Shown one piece after another: positions 16,250-29,733 of a stretch of 64,000 bases of DNA. This stretch comes from an uncultured Roseovarius sp. (lineage in GTDB: Bacteria > Pseudomonadota > Alphaproteobacteria > Rhodobacterales > Rhodobacteraceae), in the NCBI GenBank assembly GCA_947499555.1, contig CANMOU010000001.1:992001-1056000 (forward strand), in the 5' to 3' direction. The notes beneath the pieces were generated by a model. It was given only the letters and a program-made list of their open reading frames with translations. It had not been told where the DNA came from and did no database searches. Both the position numbers and the translations under genes were made by a program. Numbering within the stretch: position 1 is the stretch's first letter; each line of letters starts with the position of its first letter.

Positions 16250-16283
16250 GTCGTCCCTCGGTTCCCGTTCTTATCCTGTCATT

Positions 16284-16532
16284 TCAATCGGCGCAGGCGG
16301 TCCCGCCTGCCCCATACCCCGCACAGCCCGGTTCCACAACCAACGCCGGGGCGAAACCCGTCTTCGCGAGCCCTACAAAATCAAGCCCCTTGATCGGCAG
16401 GCCCAGCACGATTGCCGGGGTCAGCGCAAAGAGCACGACACCACAGACCACCACCCGCTGGCGGCGGGCCTTGGTTTGGCGATATCTGTCGTACTCGTCG
16501 TCCATTCCGGTCTCTTTAGGTCCTTTTCTCAT
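16284..16532 (-). CDS. Small single-pass membrane protein in the nuo operon
   Basis: An 82-residue protein with a basic N-terminus (RYRQTKARRQR) and one hydrophobic segment (VVVCGVVLFALTPAIVLGLP), predicting an N-in anchor, then a short tail with two cysteines (PGCAGYGAGGTACAD). The ATG at 16532 overlaps the stop of the preceding gene by ATGA; an internal ATG at 16505 is an alternative. The family is not recognised. Tight spacing on both sides shows that it is part of the nuo transcript. Its function is unknown. Confidence 0.7.
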   Translation of the reverse strand: MRKGPKETGMDDEYDRYRQTKARRQRVVVCGVVLFALTPAIVLGLPIKGLDFVGLAKTGFAPALVVEPGCAGYGAGGTACAD

Positions 16533-17005
16533 CCATCAAGCTGAAACGCCTCCATGTCCTGTCGCAGGTCCGCGTAAAGGGCAGCACAGGCGCAGGGTTC
16601 TTTGTTCAGATTTGCAATGACCACGTTGCGCGCCTCGTTTTCCAGATCGGCGGCCATGCGCTCGAGCGTGGCAAAGACCCGCGCGCCACTTTGATGGCGT
16701 TCCACGATCTTGAGCGCCGCCTCGGTGCGATCAAAGGGCGGCTGATCACTGAGGTTTTCCGCGGCAGTCAGCAAGCTCAAAGCACGGCCTTCGGCACAAT
16801 CGGCAATCACATAGGTCGACGCAGTGGCCTCATGGCTCCACCAGTCGCGCCACATCACGCGCCCCTCGCCCAGATCCCGGTGCATATCCTCGCCCCCATG
16901 GCTGGGATGGGTGACGCGGTTGCACTCAGCCAGCGAAAGGGCAGAGGCCGTGCCTGCTGTCAAAACAAGCGCGCAGGCCAATGCGTATGTGACGCGTTTG
17001 CTCAA
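16529..17005 (-). CDS. Exported hypothetical protein in the nuo operon
   Basis: A 158-residue protein with a clean Sec signal peptide ([22 protein letters not shown], cleavage after about residue 22). The mature part has four cysteines (C28, C70, C138, C140; the last two as CAC) and is otherwise helical and acidic. It overlaps nuoJ upstream and the small membrane gene downstream by ATGA, so all are translationally coupled. The family is not recognised. The predicted site is the periplasm, on the opposite side from the catalytic arm of complex I. Confidence 0.75.
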
Positions 17006-17610
17006 AGACCCTGCCCCGGTTTCACGTCACGAAGCTCCATCGCTTTGGCCGGGTCGCGGTACATCTGCGCCAGCACATCCTGCCGTTTGACGTCCGAGCG
17101 GTGCCGCAAGGTCAGGACAATCGCACCAACCATGGCAACCAGCAGGATCAGGCCCGACAGCTGGAAGAGCAGAAAGTATTTGTCATAAAGCAACAGCCCC
17201 AGCGCCTTGGTGTTTTCAACGCCTTCTGGTGTCACCGCCCCGCGCGCCGCCTCGGCCCCGTCGGCCATCTGCCAGTTGCCGAACGCCACGCCGAACTGCA
17301 TCAGAAGGATGACCGCGATGAGCAGCGCCAGCGGCATGTATTTCGCCATCTCCGCCTTCAGCTCGGCGAAATCCACATCCAGCATCATGACGACGAACAG
17401 GAACAGCACCGCCACCGCGCCGACATAGACGATGATCAAAAGCATCGCGACGAACTCTGCGCCCAAAAGCACGAAAAGCCCGGCCGAGCTGATGAACGCA
17501 AGAATGAGCCAAAGCACTGAATGCACCGGATTACGGCTTATGACCGTGAACAGCCCGCCGACCAGTGCCGATATCGCAAAGAGGTAAAAGGAAAATACCG
17601 CCACGCTCAT
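17002..17610 (-). CDS. nuoJ: NADH-quinone oxidoreductase subunit J
   Basis: A 202-residue membrane subunit with five helices in the first 170 residues. The family signature [20 protein letters not shown] is near residue 27 and [18 protein letters not shown], containing the pi-bulge helix, near residue 61. A C-terminal soluble tail ([21 protein letters not shown]) is typical of alphaproteobacteria. It overlaps by ATGA both with the decarboxylase-like gene before it and the exported-protein gene after it. Confidence 0.96.
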
Positions 17611-18020
17611 GTCTCTTCATCCTCATCCTTGGTCTCATCGAGAACCTGGCGGGCAAACTCCATCGCCCGGTTCATCGACGGAATACCGGCAAACATCGAC
17701 ATCATGGCGATGGTTTCGGCAATCTCATCCTTGGTGGCGCCTGCTTCCAGCGCATGGCGGACCGTCATCCGCATCTGCGTGTCGCTCTGCGCGCCCAGCA
17801 TGGTCAGCCCCGCCAGCGTGATCAAAAGCCGTGTGCGCGCATCCAGCCCGTCCTTGGAAATCCCCTTGCCGAACATCATTTCCATGAATTCCTTGGGCAT
17901 GGTCGGCCAAAGCGCTTCCATGTCCTTGGGAGAGAATGATTCCAGCGCCGGGTTGAAAGCTTTCGCCATTTCCTGCGCCTGCGCCATCATCGCGGCAAAG
18001 GGGTTCATCGGATCATTCAT
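17607..18020 (-). CDS. Carboxymuconolactone decarboxylase-like protein in the nuo operon
   Basis: A 137-residue helical protein. The start at 18020 ([14 protein letters not shown]) overlaps the nuoI stop as ATGA; the longer frame would run into nuoI. The core [20 protein letters not shown] followed by [17 protein letters not shown] matches the CMD/AhpD family pattern. The CxxC redox pair of AhpD is absent; no cysteine occurs in the protein. It is thus not a peroxidase of the AhpD type, and the decarboxylase activity is unproven. Its invariant place inside complex I operons of Rhodobacteraceae is, as far as known, unexplained. Confidence 0.8.
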
Positions 18021-18511
18021 CGGTATGGCGCGTCCATTTCCAGATTGCGGGCGATCTCGGCTTCCCACCTCTCGCCGTTATCCAGAAGCTTTTCCTTGTC
18101 ATAGAAAAGCTCTTCGCGGGTCTCGGTGGCAAACTCGAAATTCGGTCCCTCGACAATCGCATCCACAGGGCAGGCCTCTTGGCAAAAGCCGCAATAGATG
18201 CATTTGGTCATGTCGATGTCATAGCGCGTGGTGCGCCGCGAGCCGTCATCGCGCGGCTCGGCATCGATAGTGATGGCCTGCGCCGGGCAAATCGCCTCGC
18301 AGAGCTTGCAGGCAATACAGCGCTCTTCGCCGTTGGGATAGCGGCGCAGGGCATGCTCTCCTCGGAACCGCGGGCTCAAAGGCCCTTTCTCATGCGGATA
18401 GTTCAACGTGGCCTTGGGGGCGAAGAAATACTTCAGCCCAAGCTTGAAGCCCACGAAGAAGTCCTTGAGCAGGAAATACCCTGCGGCACGTCCGTAATCG
18501 ATCTGGGTCAT
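18017..18511 (-). CDS. nuoI: NADH-quinone oxidoreductase subunit I
   Basis: A 164-residue iron-sulfur subunit carrying clusters N6a and N6b. The two ferredoxin motifs are [12 protein letters not shown] (C65, C68, C71, C75) and [12 protein letters not shown] (C104, C107, C110, C114). It passes electrons from NuoG to the terminal cluster in NuoB and contacts the membrane through its N-terminal helix. The gene lies four bases after a methyltransferase-like gene that separates it from nuoH. Confidence 0.97.
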
Positions 18512-18514
18512 TTT

Positions 18515-19282
18515 CTACGCCCTCATCTCGTCAAACCGGGTGTCCCCGGCGTTGTCGTGGCCTTGCCACTTGGTCTCGTAATCGCTTTGCAATGCATATT
18601 TCGGCAGGTGGGACTCGGCGGTCTTTTCCACCTCATAGTAAAGATATGTGCGTCCCGGGCCGATCTTGTTGGCCAGTTTCAGGCGCACACCGGACCCCGC
18701 CGGATCGGGAAATTCGATCTGACCGAACTCTGACGAAGGTTCAATCGGCACCGCCCGGCAGTCAATGACATTACAGTTGCAGGCCCGTTTCCAAAAGGTC
18801 CACACAAGCTCGGGGTTGAACTGATACATGCCGTGCCCGTACCAGCCATTCAGCCCGTTGGCCGACACAAATCGCCCACCAGTCTTGAGCATCCGAAGCA
18901 CGGATTCCAAAGCATTTGGCACATTGAACACATGCTCAATCGTGCCGCCATCAAAGATAAAGTCGAACTGGCCTTCCAACTCTTCGGGCGGCAATGTGTT
19001 GAGGTCATGGATAACCTGTGCGCCCTCATAACCGGAGAAATCCATCGTTTCGACCTGGCCAAATCCCAGTTTCTTCAAAAGATGCTCGGAAAACCCGTCA
19101 TCCTGAAGAAAATCGAAACGGCTGCCGTCGATACCATGCGCCTTCAGAGACTGCTCGTAGAACTGGCGAAACTGCGTCTGAATCCGAAAACTCTGACGAC
19201 CAAGCATAAGGCTCCTGCCCTTGGGCTGGAACCGGGTCGAAAGCTCGACAAGCCGGTCAAAGAGGACGCAGTCAATCCCCAA
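18515..19282 (-). CDS. SAM-methyltransferase-like protein inserted between nuoH and nuoI
   Basis: A 255-residue soluble protein. The segment FDFIFDGGTIEHVFNVPNA, then RMLKTGGRFV, matches motifs II to IV of class I methyltransferases (type 11 group). The glycine loop of motif I is degenerate (RSLMLGRQSFRIQ instead of a GxGxG pattern), so SAM binding is not certain. It is in the same orientation with 2- and 3-base gaps to its neighbours and must be on the nuo transcript. Possible roles include modification of a complex I subunit or simply a hitch-hiking gene; neither is shown by sequence. Such a gene is not among the usual reading frames of the nuo operon. Confidence 0.75.
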   Translation of the reverse strand: MGIDCVLFDRLVELSTRFQPKGRSLMLGRQSFRIQTQFRQFYEQSLKAHGIDGSRFDFLQDDGFSEHLLKKLGFGQVETMDFSGYEGAQVIHDLNTLPPEELEGQFDFIFDGGTIEHVFNVPNALESVLRMLKTGGRFVSANGLNGWYGHGMYQFNPELVWTFWKRACNCNVIDCRAVPIEPSSEFGQIEFPDPAGSGVRLKLANKIGPGRTYLYYEVEKTAESHLPKYALQSDYETKWQGHDNAGDTRFDEMRA

Positions 19283-22770: not shown

Positions 22771-23172
22771 TCACTTTGCTTTCAAAAGCTGTCCGATTTG
22801 CGTGCCGCGCGCAATCTCGTCCTGGCCCAGAACACACAGGCTTTGGGCGTCCAGATTGCTGGCACCTTTGGATTCGAAATAGGCGTTGCGCCGCTCGCGC
22901 ATTTTCGCCTTTTCCTGCTTGTCGTTGACATACGCGTCTATCTCATCGTCGCTGTAGCCGCGATCAGCGGCCAGATCCTTGAGCGAATTGGCATAGGATT
23001 GCGCCCGAAATAGCCGCCCGCCGATGCTGTCACAGGCCCGCCTAATCTTGTCTGCGGCGGCGATGACCAGAAGGCCCTGATTGATGTCTTTTTCGTCTTC
23101 CAGCCCGGCCTGTGCCGTGCCTGCCGACATCACGATCACGGCGCTTATAACAATGCTCGATACCCACTTCAT
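22771..23172 (-). CDS. Exported DUF5333-type protein in the nuo operon
   Basis: A 133-residue protein with a Sec signal peptide (MKWVSSIVISAVIVMSAGTAQA). The mature part has a conserved-looking AADKIRRACDSIGGRLFRAQ segment, a DDEIDAYVNDK segment and a second cysteine in LDAQSLCVLGQDEIARGTQI; two cysteines could form one disulfide. It resembles the family catalogued as DUF5333, found in Rhodobacteraceae next to nuoG. The family name is recalled, not computed. It starts six bases before nuoG on the same transcript. Predicted location is the periplasm; function unknown. Confidence 0.75.
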   Translation of the reverse strand: MKWVSSIVISAVIVMSAGTAQAGLEDEKDINQGLLVIAAADKIRRACDSIGGRLFRAQSYANSLKDLAADRGYSDDEIDAYVNDKQEKAKMRERRNAYFESKGASNLDAQSLCVLGQDEIARGTQIGQLLKAK

Positions 23173-23299: not shown

Positions 23300-23662
23300 T
23301 CACCAAAGCACACACCGCCCATCAAGCAACAGGGTTGTGCCATTTATGCGCAGCGCGGCCTCATCCGCATCCGGGCCATTGACCCAGGCGATCTCGGAGG
23401 TGCCGAAATTCTCCACGCAATAGCGTGTCCCCTCGTAACGGCCCGCCTCACGCGCAGCCGCAAGCCCCTTGGTGATCCGCGGCACCCTGACGGTGAAGCT
23501 CTGACGGTCATCGGATGTGTGCTTGGCCTTCGTGCGGAAATACTGGCCATCAAAGAACACGCGGTCCTGCGTTTTCGTGCAGGCAGTCAGCGCCAGAACA
23601 CCGGCCAGCAGCAGCAGGCCTGCACGACCGCCCGGTGTTGATCTCAATCGGGACTGTTTCAT
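23300..23662 (-). CDS. Putative lipoprotein in the nuo operon, after the MAPEG gene
   Basis: A 120-residue protein. The ATG at 23662 overlaps the stop of the MAPEG gene as ATGA. The N-terminus has basic residues followed by GLLLLAGVLALTAC, a lipoprotein signal with lipobox LTAC. The mature part contains VFFDGQYFRTKAK and RYCVENFGTSEIAWVNGPDA segments and two further cysteines. This looks like a small outer-membrane or inner-membrane lipoprotein of unknown function that is found in Rhodobacteraceae near nuoF. Family not named with confidence. Confidence 0.75.
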   Translation of the reverse strand: MKQSRLRSTPGGRAGLLLLAGVLALTACTKTQDRVFFDGQYFRTKAKHTSDDRQSFTVRVPRITKGLAAAREAGRYEGTRYCVENFGTSEIAWVNGPDADEAALRINGTTLLLDGRCVLW

Positions 23663-24078
23663 CCGAGCACCGCCAGAACTGCCATCAGGCATAAGATGAT
23701 ACATGCCAGCCAGCCAGCCACGTAAAGAAACGACCGCGCGCTCATATCCGGCTTGCCGATGCCCTTGATGTGGACAAAGGCCAGCACAAGGCGGCTAACA
23801 AAGAAGAGGGAGGCCAGCAGGTTCACCCAGAACGGGTTTGCCCCGGCCAGAATGGCCACACCGACCGCGCCCACAAAAAATCCCATCGTCTCGGCAAGAT
23901 TGACGTAGGTCCGGTGCCAGCGATAGACCGAACTGCCATAATCGGCGTCGGGCTCACATCCCGGCGCCAGCCCGGCCCCGGTTTTCTTGACCGCGGAAAG
24001 CGGTGAAAGCACGAGTCCGAACACGACCATCAACGCGACCGATACGATGGCATGAGAATAGTCTGCAAAGGCTTCCAT
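23659..24078 (-). CDS. MAPEG family membrane protein
   Basis: A 139-residue protein with four predicted helices. The motif RWHRTYVNLAETMGFFVGAV near residue 53 corresponds to the RAxRAxxNxxE signature of membrane-associated proteins in eicosanoid and glutathione metabolism. In the family this motif binds glutathione, but most bacterial members have no known substrate. It lies five bases after nuoF and is coupled to the lipoprotein gene that follows. Why a MAPEG protein belongs with complex I is unknown; relation to quinone or lipid peroxide handling would be a guess. Confidence 0.8.
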   Translation of the reverse strand: MEAFADYSHAIVSVALMVVFGLVLSPLSAVKKTGAGLAPGCEPDADYGSSVYRWHRTYVNLAETMGFFVGAVGVAILAGANPFWVNLLASLFFVSRLVLAFVHIKGIGKPDMSARSFLYVAGWLACIILCLMAVLAVLG

Positions 24079-25619: not shown

Positions 25620-26324
25620 TCAGTACACGTCGCCTTTGCCCACGCGCTTGGAAAACTCCGTCTCGCCACCCGCCGCCAGAATCTTGGCCTGCTCGATCCA
25701 GTTGTCGCGTGACGCGCGGCCTTTGAAGCCTTTCAGATTGGCATCAACCCAAGCGATTTCATTCGCGCTCCAAGCGGCGACCTGATCAAAATGATAAAAG
25801 CCCATCTCGTTGAGCATTTTCTCAAGTTTCGGCCCCACGCCTTTGATTTCCTTGAGGTTATCCGCCTTGCCGCCACGCGCCGCCTTGAGGCCGGATGGAC
25901 GTGTGCCTTCGTTCTCGCCTTCCAGAACACCATCGCCATCGTAATCCGGGGTCGGCTCGACCTTGTCCTTGGGTTTCGCTTTGGCTTTCGGTTTCGCTGC
26001 AGCCTTGGCCACCGGTGCAGGAGGCCTTGCGGGTTTTGTCACCGGTTTTGACGCCACGGTCGCGACCGGAGCAGACAGCGGCTTGCCCTGCGGGGTCGCC
26101 GGAACTGCGGTCTCGTCGTAATCGCTGCCCTCTTCATCGTCATCCGCCCAGCAGAACAGAAGCTGCAGAACCAGCGCCAGGAACACGGCCAATGCAATCG
26201 CCACCAGAAGCGCCGCCAGAAAGCCGGTTTGCGAGGCGATCAGGTACATCGACACGATTCCGGCTCCGATCCCCAGAGCCCAGCAGCCTAATTTGCATTG
26301 AGACACAAAAGCGTCACCATTCAT
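25620..26324 (-). CDS. Membrane protein with NuoE-tail-like helix-hairpin-helix domain
   Basis: A 234-residue protein. Two membrane helices occupy about residues 13-57, followed by an acidic patch (ADDDEEGSDYDE), a long Pro/Ala/Lys-rich linker (to about 155) and a 78-residue C-terminal domain starting [15 protein letters not shown]. That domain is a helix-hairpin-helix type (COG3743-like) and is about 68 percent identical by hand alignment (53 of 78) to the C-terminal extension of the adjacent NuoE; both end in KGDVY. The two therefore arose by local duplication. It may tether or bind a partner shared with NuoE at the membrane; there is no evidence for DNA binding. Confidence 0.8.
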   Translation of the reverse strand: MNGDAFVSQCKLGCWALGIGAGIVSMYLIASQTGFLAALLVAIALAVFLALVLQLLFCWADDDEEGSDYDETAVPATPQGKPLSAPVATVASKPVTKPARPPAPVAKAAAKPKAKAKPKDKVEPTPDYDGDGVLEGENEGTRPSGLKAARGGKADNLKEIKGVGPKLEKMLNEMGFYHFDQVAAWSANEIAWVDANLKGFKGRASRDNWIEQAKILAAGGETEFSKRVGKGDVY

Positions 26325-26356: not shown

Positions 26357-27478
26357 TCAATAGACGTCTCCCTTTTTTACCTTCTTGGCGAACTCGGTGG
26401 TCCCGCCTTCGGCCAGCGTCTTGGACTGACCAACCCAATCATCCCGGCTGACCCGGCCTTTGAAACCTTCAAGATTTTCATCGGCCCAGGCCACCTCTTC
26501 GGTGCCCCAGCCTGCGATCTGATCAAAGTGAAACACACCCATGCCATGCAGCATCTTTTCAAGCTTCGGACCAACGCCCTTGATCATTTTCAGATCGTCC
26601 GGACCACCCTCTCGCGCGGCGTCCAAAAGCTCAGGCTTTTTTTGCGCGGCTGGTTGTGCGGCCTCTTTCTTGGGTGCCGCCGGTTTCTTCGGTGCAGGCG
26701 CAGGTTTTTCCGCGGCCACTTCAGGGGCCGCGACCTTTACTTTCGACGCACCCGGCGCGTGGTTGGCCCCCTTGTCGCGCCATGGCGCGATAAGAGGCAC
26801 TTCGCTCCCGTCGATACGCTTGACCGTATCGCCGATATCTGTGGCCAGTTGGACACTTGCGTTATACTTGGTCTTGCCGCTGTCATACTTGGTCAGGCTG
26901 GTCAGCCCGCTCAACGGTTCAGACGCATAGCGCCCGTTTTGCGGCCCCGGCACCGGCACCTTGCCGGCGCGCAGCTCTTCGATGATCTCGCCGAACCGCT
27001 CTGCCGTCAGATCCTCGTAATAATCCTTGCCGATCTGCGCCATTGGCGCGTTGGCACAGGCGCCAAGGCATTCCACCTCTTCCCAGCTCAACTTGCCATC
27101 GTCGCTAAGCTCATGCGGATTGGCCGCGATCTTGTCCTGGCAGACACCAATAAGGTCTTCCGCCCCGCAGATCATGCAGGAGGTCGTGCCACAAATCTGA
27201 ATATGTGCAACAGATCCAACTGGTTGCATCTGAAACATGAAGTAGAAGCTGGCCACTTCCAGCGCCCGGATATAGGCCAAGCCAAGCATATCCGCGACCG
27301 TTTCGATCGCCGGACGGCTGAGCCAGCCTTCCTGCTCCTGCGCCCTCCACAAAAGCGGAATGATCGCACTGGCCTGCCGCCCTTCGGGATATTTCGAGAT
27401 CTGCGCCTCGACCCATGCCTGATTGGCCTTTGTAAATGCAAAACTCTCGGGCTGTTCGTGATGAAGACGGCGTAGCAT
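26357..27478 (-). CDS. nuoE: NADH-quinone oxidoreductase subunit E with C-terminal extension
   Basis: A 373-residue NuoE. Residues 1-180 are the thioredoxin-fold subunit with the N1a [2Fe-2S] ligands C96, C101, C137 and C141 (ICGTTSC and ECLGAC). The rest, absent from E. coli NuoE (about 166 residues), has an Ala/Pro/Lys-rich linker and a helix-hairpin-helix domain (residues 296-373, [15 protein letters not shown] to KGDVY). Long NuoE proteins are known in Rhodobacter relatives. N1a is off the main electron path. The start at 27478 directly abuts the stop of the upstream lipoprotein gene. Confidence 0.95.
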
Positions 27479-27769
27479 CTAGGCGCAGGCTCCTGTCGTG
27501 AGCTTGATCCCGCCACCTTCGAGGTTGACCGCCCGGTCCGTGCTTAGCACGTAGGATGCCATCGCCTGTGTCTGTTCCCGTGACAAACCGGTCTGCAGCT
27601 CGACCGGTAGGTAATCGGCCTCTGTCTTGAGCACACATCCAATGCTTGCCACTGCCGTTTCAAAGCTCGTGACATCCTGCGCTGTCGTGCCCTCTGGCGG
27701 CAGCGCACAAGCGGTCAGCATCGTCAGACCTACTGTCGCAGTCACCAAGTTTATTTTCGTTGTCGTCAT
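27479..27769 (-). CDS. Putative small lipoprotein between nuoD and nuoE
   Basis: A 96-residue product from the ATG at 27769 (MTTTKINLVTATVG); the longer frame upstream runs antisense-like through nuoD and is rejected. The signal ends in LTAC, a lipobox. The mature part has cysteines in SIGCVLKTEADY and TTGACA at the extreme C-terminus, and a GLSREQTQAMASYVLSTDRA segment. It fits 13 bases after nuoD and directly before nuoE. The family is unrecognised. It adds to the set of exported small proteins in this operon. Confidence 0.7.
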   Translation of the reverse strand: MTTTKINLVTATVGLTMLTACALPPEGTTAQDVTSFETAVASIGCVLKTEADYLPVELQTGLSREQTQAMASYVLSTDRAVNLEGGGIKLTTGACA

Positions 27770-27782
27770 GCCAGCCCGTCCC

Positions 27783-29003
27783 TCACCGGTCAATTTCGCC
27801 AAACACCACATCCATCGTGCCGATAATCGCCGCCACATCGGCCAGCTGATGGCCCGTGGCCATGTAATCCATCGCCTGAAGATGCAGAAATCCCGGCGCC
27901 CGGATTTTGGATCGGTACGGCCGGTTGGTGCCGTCAGACACCAGATAGACGCCAAATTCGCCCTTGGGCGCTTCCACGGCGGCATAAACCTCACCCTCGG
28001 GCACTTTGAACCCTTCGGTGTAAAGCTTGAAGTGATGGATGAGCGCCTCCATCGAGGTTTTCATCTCGGCGCGGTTCGGCGGAGTGATCTTGCCCCGGGC
28101 CAGGATATCGCCCTGTCCTTCCGGTGCGCGCAGTTTCTCTATCGCCTGCAGGATGATCGAGGTTGACTGGCGCATTTCCTCCATCCGGCAAAGATAGCGA
28201 TCATAGCAATCACCATTCTTGCCTATTGGCACCTGAAACTCGAATTCATCATAACATTCATAGGGTTGCGCGCGGCGCAAATCCCAGGCCAGGCCAGAGC
28301 CACGTACCATCACGCCAGAAAAACCCCAGTCAAGAATGTCTTGCTCGTTGATAATACCAATATCGGCGTTGCGCTGTTTGAAGATGCGGTTCTCGGTCAG
28401 AAGCCCATCCAGATCATTGATCACCCGCGGGAATTCGTGTGCCCAGGTCTCGATATCGTCGAGAAGCTCCGGTGGCAGGTCCTGATGCACACCACCGGGG
28501 CGGAAATAGGCCGCGTGAAGACGCGCCCCGCAGGCCCGTTCGTAGAAGACCATGAGCTTTTCACGCTCTTCAAAGCCCCAAAGCGGCGGCGTCAGCGCGC
28601 CGACATCCATCGCCTGCGTGGTGACATTCAGAAGGTGGTTCAGAACCCGCCCAATCTCGGAGTAAAGCACCCGGATCAGGCTCGCCCGGCGCGGCACCTC
28701 AACGCCTGTGAGCTTTTCAATCGCCAGACACCAGGCATGTTCCTGATTCATCGGCGCGACGTAATCGAGCCGGTCGAAGTAAGGCAGGTTTTGCAGGTAC
28801 GTCCGGCTTTCCATCAGCTTTTCGGTGCCGCGATGCAGCAGGCCGATATGCGGGTCGCAGCGCTCAACCACCTCGCCGTCAAGCTCCAGCACAAGTCGCA
28901 AAACACCATGCGCCGCGGGGTGTTGCGGGCCGAAATTGATGTTGAAATTGCGGATTTTCTGCTCGCCCGTCAGCGCGTCGTCAAATCCTTTGGAGCCGTC
29001 CAT
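27783..29003 (-). CDS. nuoD: NADH-quinone oxidoreductase subunit D
   Basis: A 406-residue 49-kDa-type subunit. [21 protein letters not shown] near residue 21 carries the quinone-site histidine, and [20 protein letters not shown] and [16 protein letters not shown] follow; the quinone tyrosine lies in this region as in its relatives. The hydrogenase-like nickel ligands are lost. The ATG at 29003 overlaps the stop of a 41-codon ORF (TGATG), with AGGAG nine bases upstream; a GTG one codon earlier is an alternative. Confidence 0.97.
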
Positions 29004-29128
29004 CACATGGTTCTCCTGTTCGAATTATACACGACAGGTATATCGATCCATTTTTTAAAAATGGGCATTGCCGCCAACACCAGTGCCGCCGTCAAAAGTT
29101 CAGCAAATTCAGCAAGAAACGGTATCAC
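29003..29128 (-). CDS. 41-residue membrane microprotein coupled to nuoC and nuoD
   Basis: A reading frame of 41 codons plus stop fills the gap between nuoC and nuoD. The GTG at 29128 overlaps the nuoC TGA (GTGA), a strong AGGAGGAGG ribosome site lies at 29133-29141 with suitable spacing, and its TGA shares a base with the nuoD ATG (TGATG). The product has an acidic N-terminus (FLAEFAE), one hydrophobic helix ([14 protein letters not shown]), then KKWID and a polar basic end (NSNRRTM). This is the sort of small single-pass subunit found in respiratory complexes. The family is unknown. The two-sided coupling is seen directly; translation is inferred. Confidence 0.6.
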
Positions 29129-29733
29129 TTCGCCTCCTCCTGCTTCTCATCCCCCGGCAGGATGTATTCCGCACCCTCCCAGGGACTCATGAAATCAAAC
29201 TGCCGGTATTCCTGCACCAGTTTCACAGGTTCATAGATCACACGCTTTTGCACCTCGTCATAGCGCACTTCGGTATAGCCCGTGGTCGGGAAATCCTTGC
29301 GCAGTGGATAGCCGCGGAAGCCGTAATCGGTCAGGATGCGCCGCAAATCGGGATGGCCCGAAAAGAGAATGCCGAACATGTCGAAGACTTCGCGCTCAAA
29401 CCAGTTGGCCGAGGGGTGCACTTCGGTGATCGACGGCACCATATCCTCTTCGCGAATGCTCACCCGTAGGCGGATACGGTGGTTCTGATACATGCTCAGG
29501 AAGTGGTAGATCACGTCAAACCGCTTGGGCCGGTCGGGATGATCCACGCCTGTGATATCGACAAGCGTGGAAAAGCGGCAGGTCTGATCGGATTTCAGAA
29601 ACTCGACAAACCCCACAAGGTTCGAGAGCGCCACATCCATGGTCAGCTCGCCAAAGGCCACATCCCAGCTCAGCACACAATCGGTGCGCTTGGCCTCGAT
29701 ATGGGCTCCCAGTTCTCTCAGCGCCTCACTCAT
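29125..29733 (-). CDS. nuoC: NADH-quinone oxidoreductase subunit C
   Basis: A 202-residue 30-kDa-type subunit. The motif [15 protein letters not shown], corresponding to the family signature, lies near residue 155 and [24 protein letters not shown] just before it (written in parts: [12 protein letters not shown], then HPDLRRIL). It packs against NuoD and NuoI in the peripheral arm and holds no cofactor. It is 21 bases from nuoB. In contrast to E. coli, nuoC and nuoD are separate genes, as in Paracoccus. Confidence 0.97.

Follow-up and report, generated by a model that had tools for sequence, protein, structure and literature searches.

The closest precedent for variable inserts of the kind considered here is the set of novel genes described inside the TCA-cycle operons (sucCD / sdhCDAB) of Roseobacters by Christie-Oleza et al. 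(2012), whose main text leaves their role open (PMC3305630) and contains no word beginning with NADH or nuo. Those genes, clade-specific and detected as proteins in the account given there, with several of them co-transcribed, resemble the nuoC-nuoD insert that is our subject in being poorly conserved and of unassigned function, in varying between species and in being lodged between core-metabolism genes of an operon. They differ in that they belong to other operons, whereas the nuoC-nuoD insert is a translationally coupled microprotein of a recognizable family (hereafter family B) at a single junction.

Other parallels are found among small proteins of respiratory systems. The CydX/CydY/CydZ proteins of the cytochrome bd oxidase are comparable in that the CydX of E. 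coli has 37 residues, few of them highly conserved, and that its gene sits in a respiratory-complex operon (PMC4325964); as that source relates, CydX is an enzyme component with a mutant phenotype, whereas the family B protein is known from its sequence. TorE/NapE, as described in passages of PMC6134056, is again a single helix showing synteny with a respiratory system and a patchy distribution (NapE accompanies 68% of NapC), with its conserved residues mostly on one helix face and variability elsewhere; it raises efficiency without being a catalyst, and its partner is a multihaem c-type cytochrome. The family B protein is likewise short, with one helix judged from hydropathy and a gene within the nuo operon, and shows protein-level constraint across its family.

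As for complex I itself, the 2.3 Å structure of the P. denitrificans enzyme contains the supernumerary subunits NDUFS4, NDUFS6 and NDUFA12, which are of the mammalian type, and PIMT (PMC11522691). The parallel lies in an alphaproteobacterial enzyme carrying extra, partly lineage-specific subunits; the difference is that none of those named in the passages on that structure is a single-helix microprotein or any other small membrane subunit. Even two core subunits of this enzyme, Nqo7 and Nqo11, went undetected by mass spectrometry, probably owing to their small size and hydrophobicity, according to a passage in PMC8115037.

Against this background, we describe a 41-codon ORF between nuoC and nuoD that is very probably a real gene. 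It is optional, comes from a family whose tested examples matched neither Pfam nor NCBIfam, and is most likely an accessory of complex I. We place at about 0.5 the probability that its product is a small membrane accessory of this complex, dispensable and specific to certain lineages, which works in the manner of CydX or TorE/NapE.

A coupled ORF in the nuoC-nuoD gap

The window, i.e., the whole stretch of 64,000 nucleotides analysed, comes from an uncultured Roseovarius sp. (contig CANMOU010000001.1) and carries the nuo operon, the 41-codon ORF included, on its minus strand. The ORF (29003..29128; GTG start at 29128-29126, TGA stop at 29005-29003) codes for a predicted single-helix membrane protein of family B and lies between nuoC (29125..29733; stop TGA at 29127-29125) and nuoD (27783..29003; ATG at 29003-29001, with a GTG one codon upstream also possible as the start). 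Its start shares one base with the nuoC stop (GTGA, 29125..29128) and is preceded by a strong Shine-Dalgarno sequence, AGGAGGAGG, within the 3' end of nuoC (29133..29141); its stop in turn shares one base with the nuoD start (TGATG, 29001..29005), and the Shine-Dalgarno-like site of nuoD, AGGAGA (29012..29017), falls in the last codons of the ORF, those for the RR of NRRTM. This bears out, and assigns to the minus strand, what a sequence-only reading of this DNA had claimed with no strand given, namely that one frame fills the gap with overlaps at both ends and a strong ribosome-binding site. With such an arrangement, a ribosome ending nuoC could start the ORF and a ribosome ending the ORF could start nuoD. 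By eye, the ORF tail also holds a TATAAT (29024-29029) upstream of nuoD, a possible -10 element with no obvious -35.

The ORF product has one hydrophobic stretch (residues 3-24, 29057..29122; best 19-residue Kyte-Doolittle mean 1.84), whose helix was called from hydropathy alone. The residues E7 and E10 lie near the N-terminus and, with A14, form a conserved set on one helical face; the stretch is followed by K25 and K26 (AAA AAA, 29051..29056, an A-run of six) and then by a polar tail. The earlier description of a single hydrophobic helix with an acidic start and a basic end thus agrees with what we find. If translated in this strain, as we infer, the product would be a single-pass membrane microprotein made up of the E7/E10-bearing helix of about residues 3-24, the KK pair and an unconserved tail, and by the positive-inside rule its KK end would be cytoplasmic.

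The sequence-only reading further took the perfect fit on both sides to be unlikely by chance. The fit is real, but the inference drawn from it is weaker than supposed: when the gap was dinucleotide-shuffled with its length and flanks held fixed, exact tiling arose in 988 of 20,000 shuffles, and 164 of the 20,000 were open up to the nuoD start with a TM-like stretch. On its own, the tiling is therefore a roughly 1-in-20 event, and the case for a gene rests on relatives. It is also the relatives that make a chance ORF in a non-coding spacer, for which these shuffles would count, highly improbable and a reading already disfavoured: the frame is specifically conserved in other genera and its location is exclusive, as detailed below.

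Homologues and coding constraint of family B

The homologues share the signature MIPF(L/W)(T/A)ExxE...K. Seven sequences of the window type (A1) align with invariant M1, I2, P3, F4, E7, E10, A14 and K25, and the window's ORF has all eight. The A1 profile matches junction ORFs outside the seven, in the Leisingera loci L083, L062 and L090 (MWFEPLAE type) and in L148 (E 1.7e-5 to 3.3e-4); the comparable ORFs at L139, L150 and L159 go unmatched by it and were added by eye. Our searches for family B were confined to the bacterial family (Rhodobacteraceae, by named contigs), and for the single-sequence query matches at E > 0.1 were treated as noise. In whole genomes, A1 matches 2 of 295 from the family and just 6 of 85 from the genus, one of the six weakly (E 0.04), all of them at the junction; such sparseness speaks against an overlooked subunit of general occurrence.

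A profile of 14 sequences (A3), run against 394 genomes of the family, found matches in 16 at E ≤ 0.05. All seven with E < 1e-3 sit at the nuoC-nuoD junction (five were members of the profile, and G391 and G210 are new), and the nine weaker ones (E 0.004 to 0.05) lie elsewhere. With a further profile (A2) and 295 genomes, 11 had matches at E ≤ 0.1: four (G000, G312, G159 and G181) at the junction and seven (E 0.002 to 0.1) off it, the off-junction G364 (E 0.0020) outranking G181 (E 0.0022). Off-junction matches to the family B profiles exist, then, and are weak (E 0.002 to 0.1). As judged by these profiles, family B is a small, fast-changing family that at E < 1e-3 occurs only at this junction in the bacterial family searched.

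The G391 sequence (MMPFLTEVIVLGLGALAAAAALPQPKKARVRVRKETK) bridges the window type to a second type, typical of Ruegeria (MMGELIxLGALGVLLAGAAAKAAEAEKVRVR). An hhalign comparison of A1 with the Ruegeria-type alignment (A4, which includes the bridging L246 sequence) gave a probability of 90% and an E of 1.5e-6 over 23 columns, and the two types are probably related on this basis. Neither the ORF nor three related examples have a Pfam or NCBIfam match at E ≤ 1. The CydX and NapE families, for which these libraries presumably include models, are likewise unmatched by the ORF at that threshold, and the resemblance of family B to CydX and TorE/NapE is one of pattern, with no homology detected. PDB searches with A1 and A4 returned no complex I chain, only unrelated chains at E 1.7 or worse. 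In the open-licence literature, judged by titles or the starts of abstracts, no paper on a nuoC-nuoD insert came up; the three nearest in their terms (PMC9696053, PMC4932448 and PMC5243855) do not treat one where those terms occur.

Family B shows protein-level constraint. Across the 21 pairs of the seven window-type sequences, differences at the three codon positions of codons 2-18 number 135/54/184 (column permutation p 0.002), and mean protein identity over these codons is 0.64 in frame as against 0.41 and 0.35 in the other frames. The pN/pS of the window type is 0.37 in frame versus 0.91 and 1.72 out of frame, and that of the Ruegeria type is 0.073 (pS 0.495, 15 loci) versus 1.35 and 3.56, with the first 100 codons of nuoD at 0.004 in 14 of the same 15 loci; since the pairs are not independent, these figures indicate strength and are not exact tests. 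They describe the family, the window's own lineage having no near relative with the ORF. The comparison of synonymous and non-synonymous change, which had been suggested as a check, thus comes out on the side of a gene, as do the homologues in the same place and the frame-specific conservation, so that of the original proposal the real, coupled gene for a small membrane protein stands.

The conserved residues cluster on one face of the helix (permutation p 0.007, 0.016 and 0.028 in three nested windows), and such one-sided conservation suggests packing against another membrane protein. We envisage that the helix would insert in the membrane and pack through its E7/E10/A14 face onto one of the membrane subunits of complex I, or onto an intermediate of its assembly. 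In this way the microprotein may tune the stability, assembly or anchoring of the complex without being essential to it.

A run of six to eight A residues at the KK codons is present in all seven MIPF-type members, and we considered programmed frameshifting at this site. Read in the other two frames, the tails are mostly short and do not resemble one another, and AAG AAA stands at this place in some related members; with the alternative frames unconserved and the run broken in this way, it is the KK that is kept, and frameshifting was set aside.

The nuoC-nuoD junction across Rhodobacteraceae

Of the 85 genus genomes, 84 have a NuoC match and one has none, and we retrieved the junctions of the other 83 with NuoC; among the resulting 84, the window included, the gap is under 60 nt in 18 and a profile B match is present in nine. 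The nearest named contig is that of an uncultured Roseovarius (L015). The window and its three nearest species (NuoC 95% identical) form a clade of four with an SH-aLRT of 100. In two of these species nuoC overlaps nuoD directly, with the same AGGAGGAGG preceding nuoD, and in the third (L095) the junction has a 396-nt insert coding for an unrelated 129-residue protein, which matches Pfam Lumazine_bd_2 (Lumazine_bd_2/DUF4440-like) and has two matches in 21 genomes (E 9e-8 and 4e-6). Both the L095 gene and nuoD begin with TGATGGACGG, which looks as though the junction had undergone a duplication.

A frame broken by frameshifts or stops in near relatives had been named as grounds for doubting the gene; what these species show instead is the absence of the entire ORF, rather than its internal decay. 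A conserved subunit or a required assembly factor of complex I is accordingly not supported, and the sequence-only reading was too strong in speaking of an overlooked subunit or assembly factor: the sister species keep nuoC and nuoD and have either nothing or an unrelated gene between them, and the PDB searches found no sequence relation to a known chain of the complex.

The same absence raises the thought that the window has a decaying relic, an AT-rich, GTG-started and random-tailed copy of a functional ancestral family B gene, on its way out as it may already have gone from the sisters. Its composition would fit, with a G+C of 44% (48% at third positions) as against 56-58% (69-72%) in nuoC and nuoD and 59% in the window overall, and so would its being the shortest of the seven aligned members, of which the other six start with ATG. 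Yet the frame, the overlaps, both ribosome sites and all eight invariant residues are intact, and the features that look degenerate are not peculiar to it, since the tail, which lacks conserved sequence and differs from the others, has equally unalike counterparts in the other six members, along with their A-runs. We regard decay as improbable.

What fills the gap was surveyed in 148 distinct junctions, comprising the genus set and 80 loci fetched by NuoC similarity and hence weighted towards close relatives; automatic tiling chose wrong frames in a few loci (e.g., L169, L166, L155 and L042), and the contents were classified using all forward frames. The slot is empty (gap under 60 nt) in 28 of the 148. 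A two-helix family, family A, is detected by profile in 84, usually directly after nuoC (e.g., L044, L152, L115 and L079); its members have 55-74 residues and the pattern PFWKLLPxFGIxxW...IPLGALxLLWVMA. Profile B, which leaves aside the Ruegeria type, matches in 14, in three of them together with A, and adding 15 loci of the Ruegeria type brings family B to at least 29 junctions. The other contents (25 of 148) include small hydrophobic ORFs (e.g., L099, L101, L117 and L128) and larger genes, the recurrent ones being lumazine-binding-like, GFA-like and sulfotransferase-like. Whichever family fills them, 52 of the 64 distinct gaps of 60-260 nt have a length of 1 mod 3, the class needed for one-base overlaps at both gap ends.

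In a sample of 31 genomes with one per genus, 29 had NuoC, and their junctions divide into 12 with a gap under 60 nt, six sulfotransferase-like, four GFA-like, two lumazine-binding-like, two B (including the window), one A and two unclassified. These labels were assigned by eye. A single sulfotransferase-like, a single GFA-like and a single lumazine-binding-like example were compared with Pfam, and the match of the sulfotransferase-like one was below Pfam's cut-off. For family A, two examples have no Pfam or NCBIfam match above cut-off, all seven matches in 21 genomes sit at the nuoC-nuoD junction, and there are none in eight genomes from other families of the class. A tree was built from nuoC+nuoD for 144 of the 148 junctions (four were left out for a short nuoC or nuoD), and on it the presence or absence of an insert changes at least 21 times and that of family B, the Ruegeria type excluded, at least 10 times; these counts are minima on this tree, in which 41 of 141 inner branches are weakly supported.

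This turnover is what lends weight to the main rival of an accessory role, namely that the peptide is made but has no part in complex I, and persists by keeping the coupling of nuoC and nuoD intact. On this view, a small coding insert that brings a ribosome site of its own would have entered a highly expressed, tightly coupled junction, something of which several families would be capable. That the slot holds genes as unrelated as the two-helix, lumazine-binding-like, GFA-like and sulfotransferase-like ones, and that inserts come and go so often on the tree, fits well with this, as does the nuoD-nuoE junction being just as variable: among the NuoC-fetched loci and the window, gaps under 60 nt number 71/80 at A|B and 70/81 at B|C, and 13/81 at C|D and 12/74 at D|E. 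The same choice, between aiding the pathway and riding on high expression, is left open for the TCA-operon inserts in the main text of PMC3305630. However, families A (7/7, 21 genomes) and B (7/7 at E < 1e-3, 394 genomes) are found only at this junction, a restriction that a general passenger would not require and which, for both families, points to a tie with complex I and not simply with high expression; the Ruegeria type is, moreover, under strong purifying selection. As general passenger genes A and B were rejected, their off-junction matches being only at E 0.002 or weaker. We therefore consider a mere rider on the operon the less likely of the two, though the main rival, and retain the accessory of complex I as the preferred reading, with the absence in sister species meaning that neither family A nor family B is required.

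More tentatively, the nuoC-nuoD junction of Rhodobacteraceae might be an accessory slot, at which unrelated one- and two-helix microproteins are swapped with preservation of the coupling, such that each lineage would make its own optional subunit or subunits in step with NuoC and NuoD. Complex I is among the best-studied of enzymes, and its operons here carry, at a fixed place, microproteins whose tested examples matched neither Pfam nor NCBIfam. Should they bind the enzyme, alphaproteobacterial complex I, which serves as a model of its mitochondrial counterpart, would have interchangeable extra subunits that purifications could miss; should they not, the junction would offer a natural experiment on the gain and loss of short, coupled genes in operons that are essential. 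Both ideas lend themselves to direct testing in the sister species, in which the slot may be filled, empty or refilled.

The notion that the nuoC-nuoD junction is the only variable place in the operon was rejected: while A|B is closely packed, as for the most part is B|C, variation is seen besides D|E also at E|F, F|G, H|I and J|K (21 operons). The nuoD-nuoE junction, an equally variable slot in relatives (74 loci), has in the window a 96-residue lipoprotein-like ORF (27479-27769) with no Pfam match. At nuoJ-nuoK, the gap (16250-17001 here) spans 752-763 nt in the window's clade, and 15 of 21 operons have fewer than 150 nt there; for the ORF at 16529-17005, Pfam gave nothing at E ≤ 0.01. Between nuoH and nuoI lies a methyltransferase-like gene (18515-19282; Pfam Methyltransf_11); of 21 operons, 11 have an H|I gap of 773-781 nt and 10 have one of 1-3 nt. 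NuoE is extended at its C-terminus, and a domain of this extension appears again in the following ORF (25620-26324 and 26357-27478), which suggests a duplication, and interspersed in the operon are MAPEG-like (23659-24078), DUF5333 (22771-23172) and carboxymuconolactone-decarboxylase-like (17607-18068) genes.
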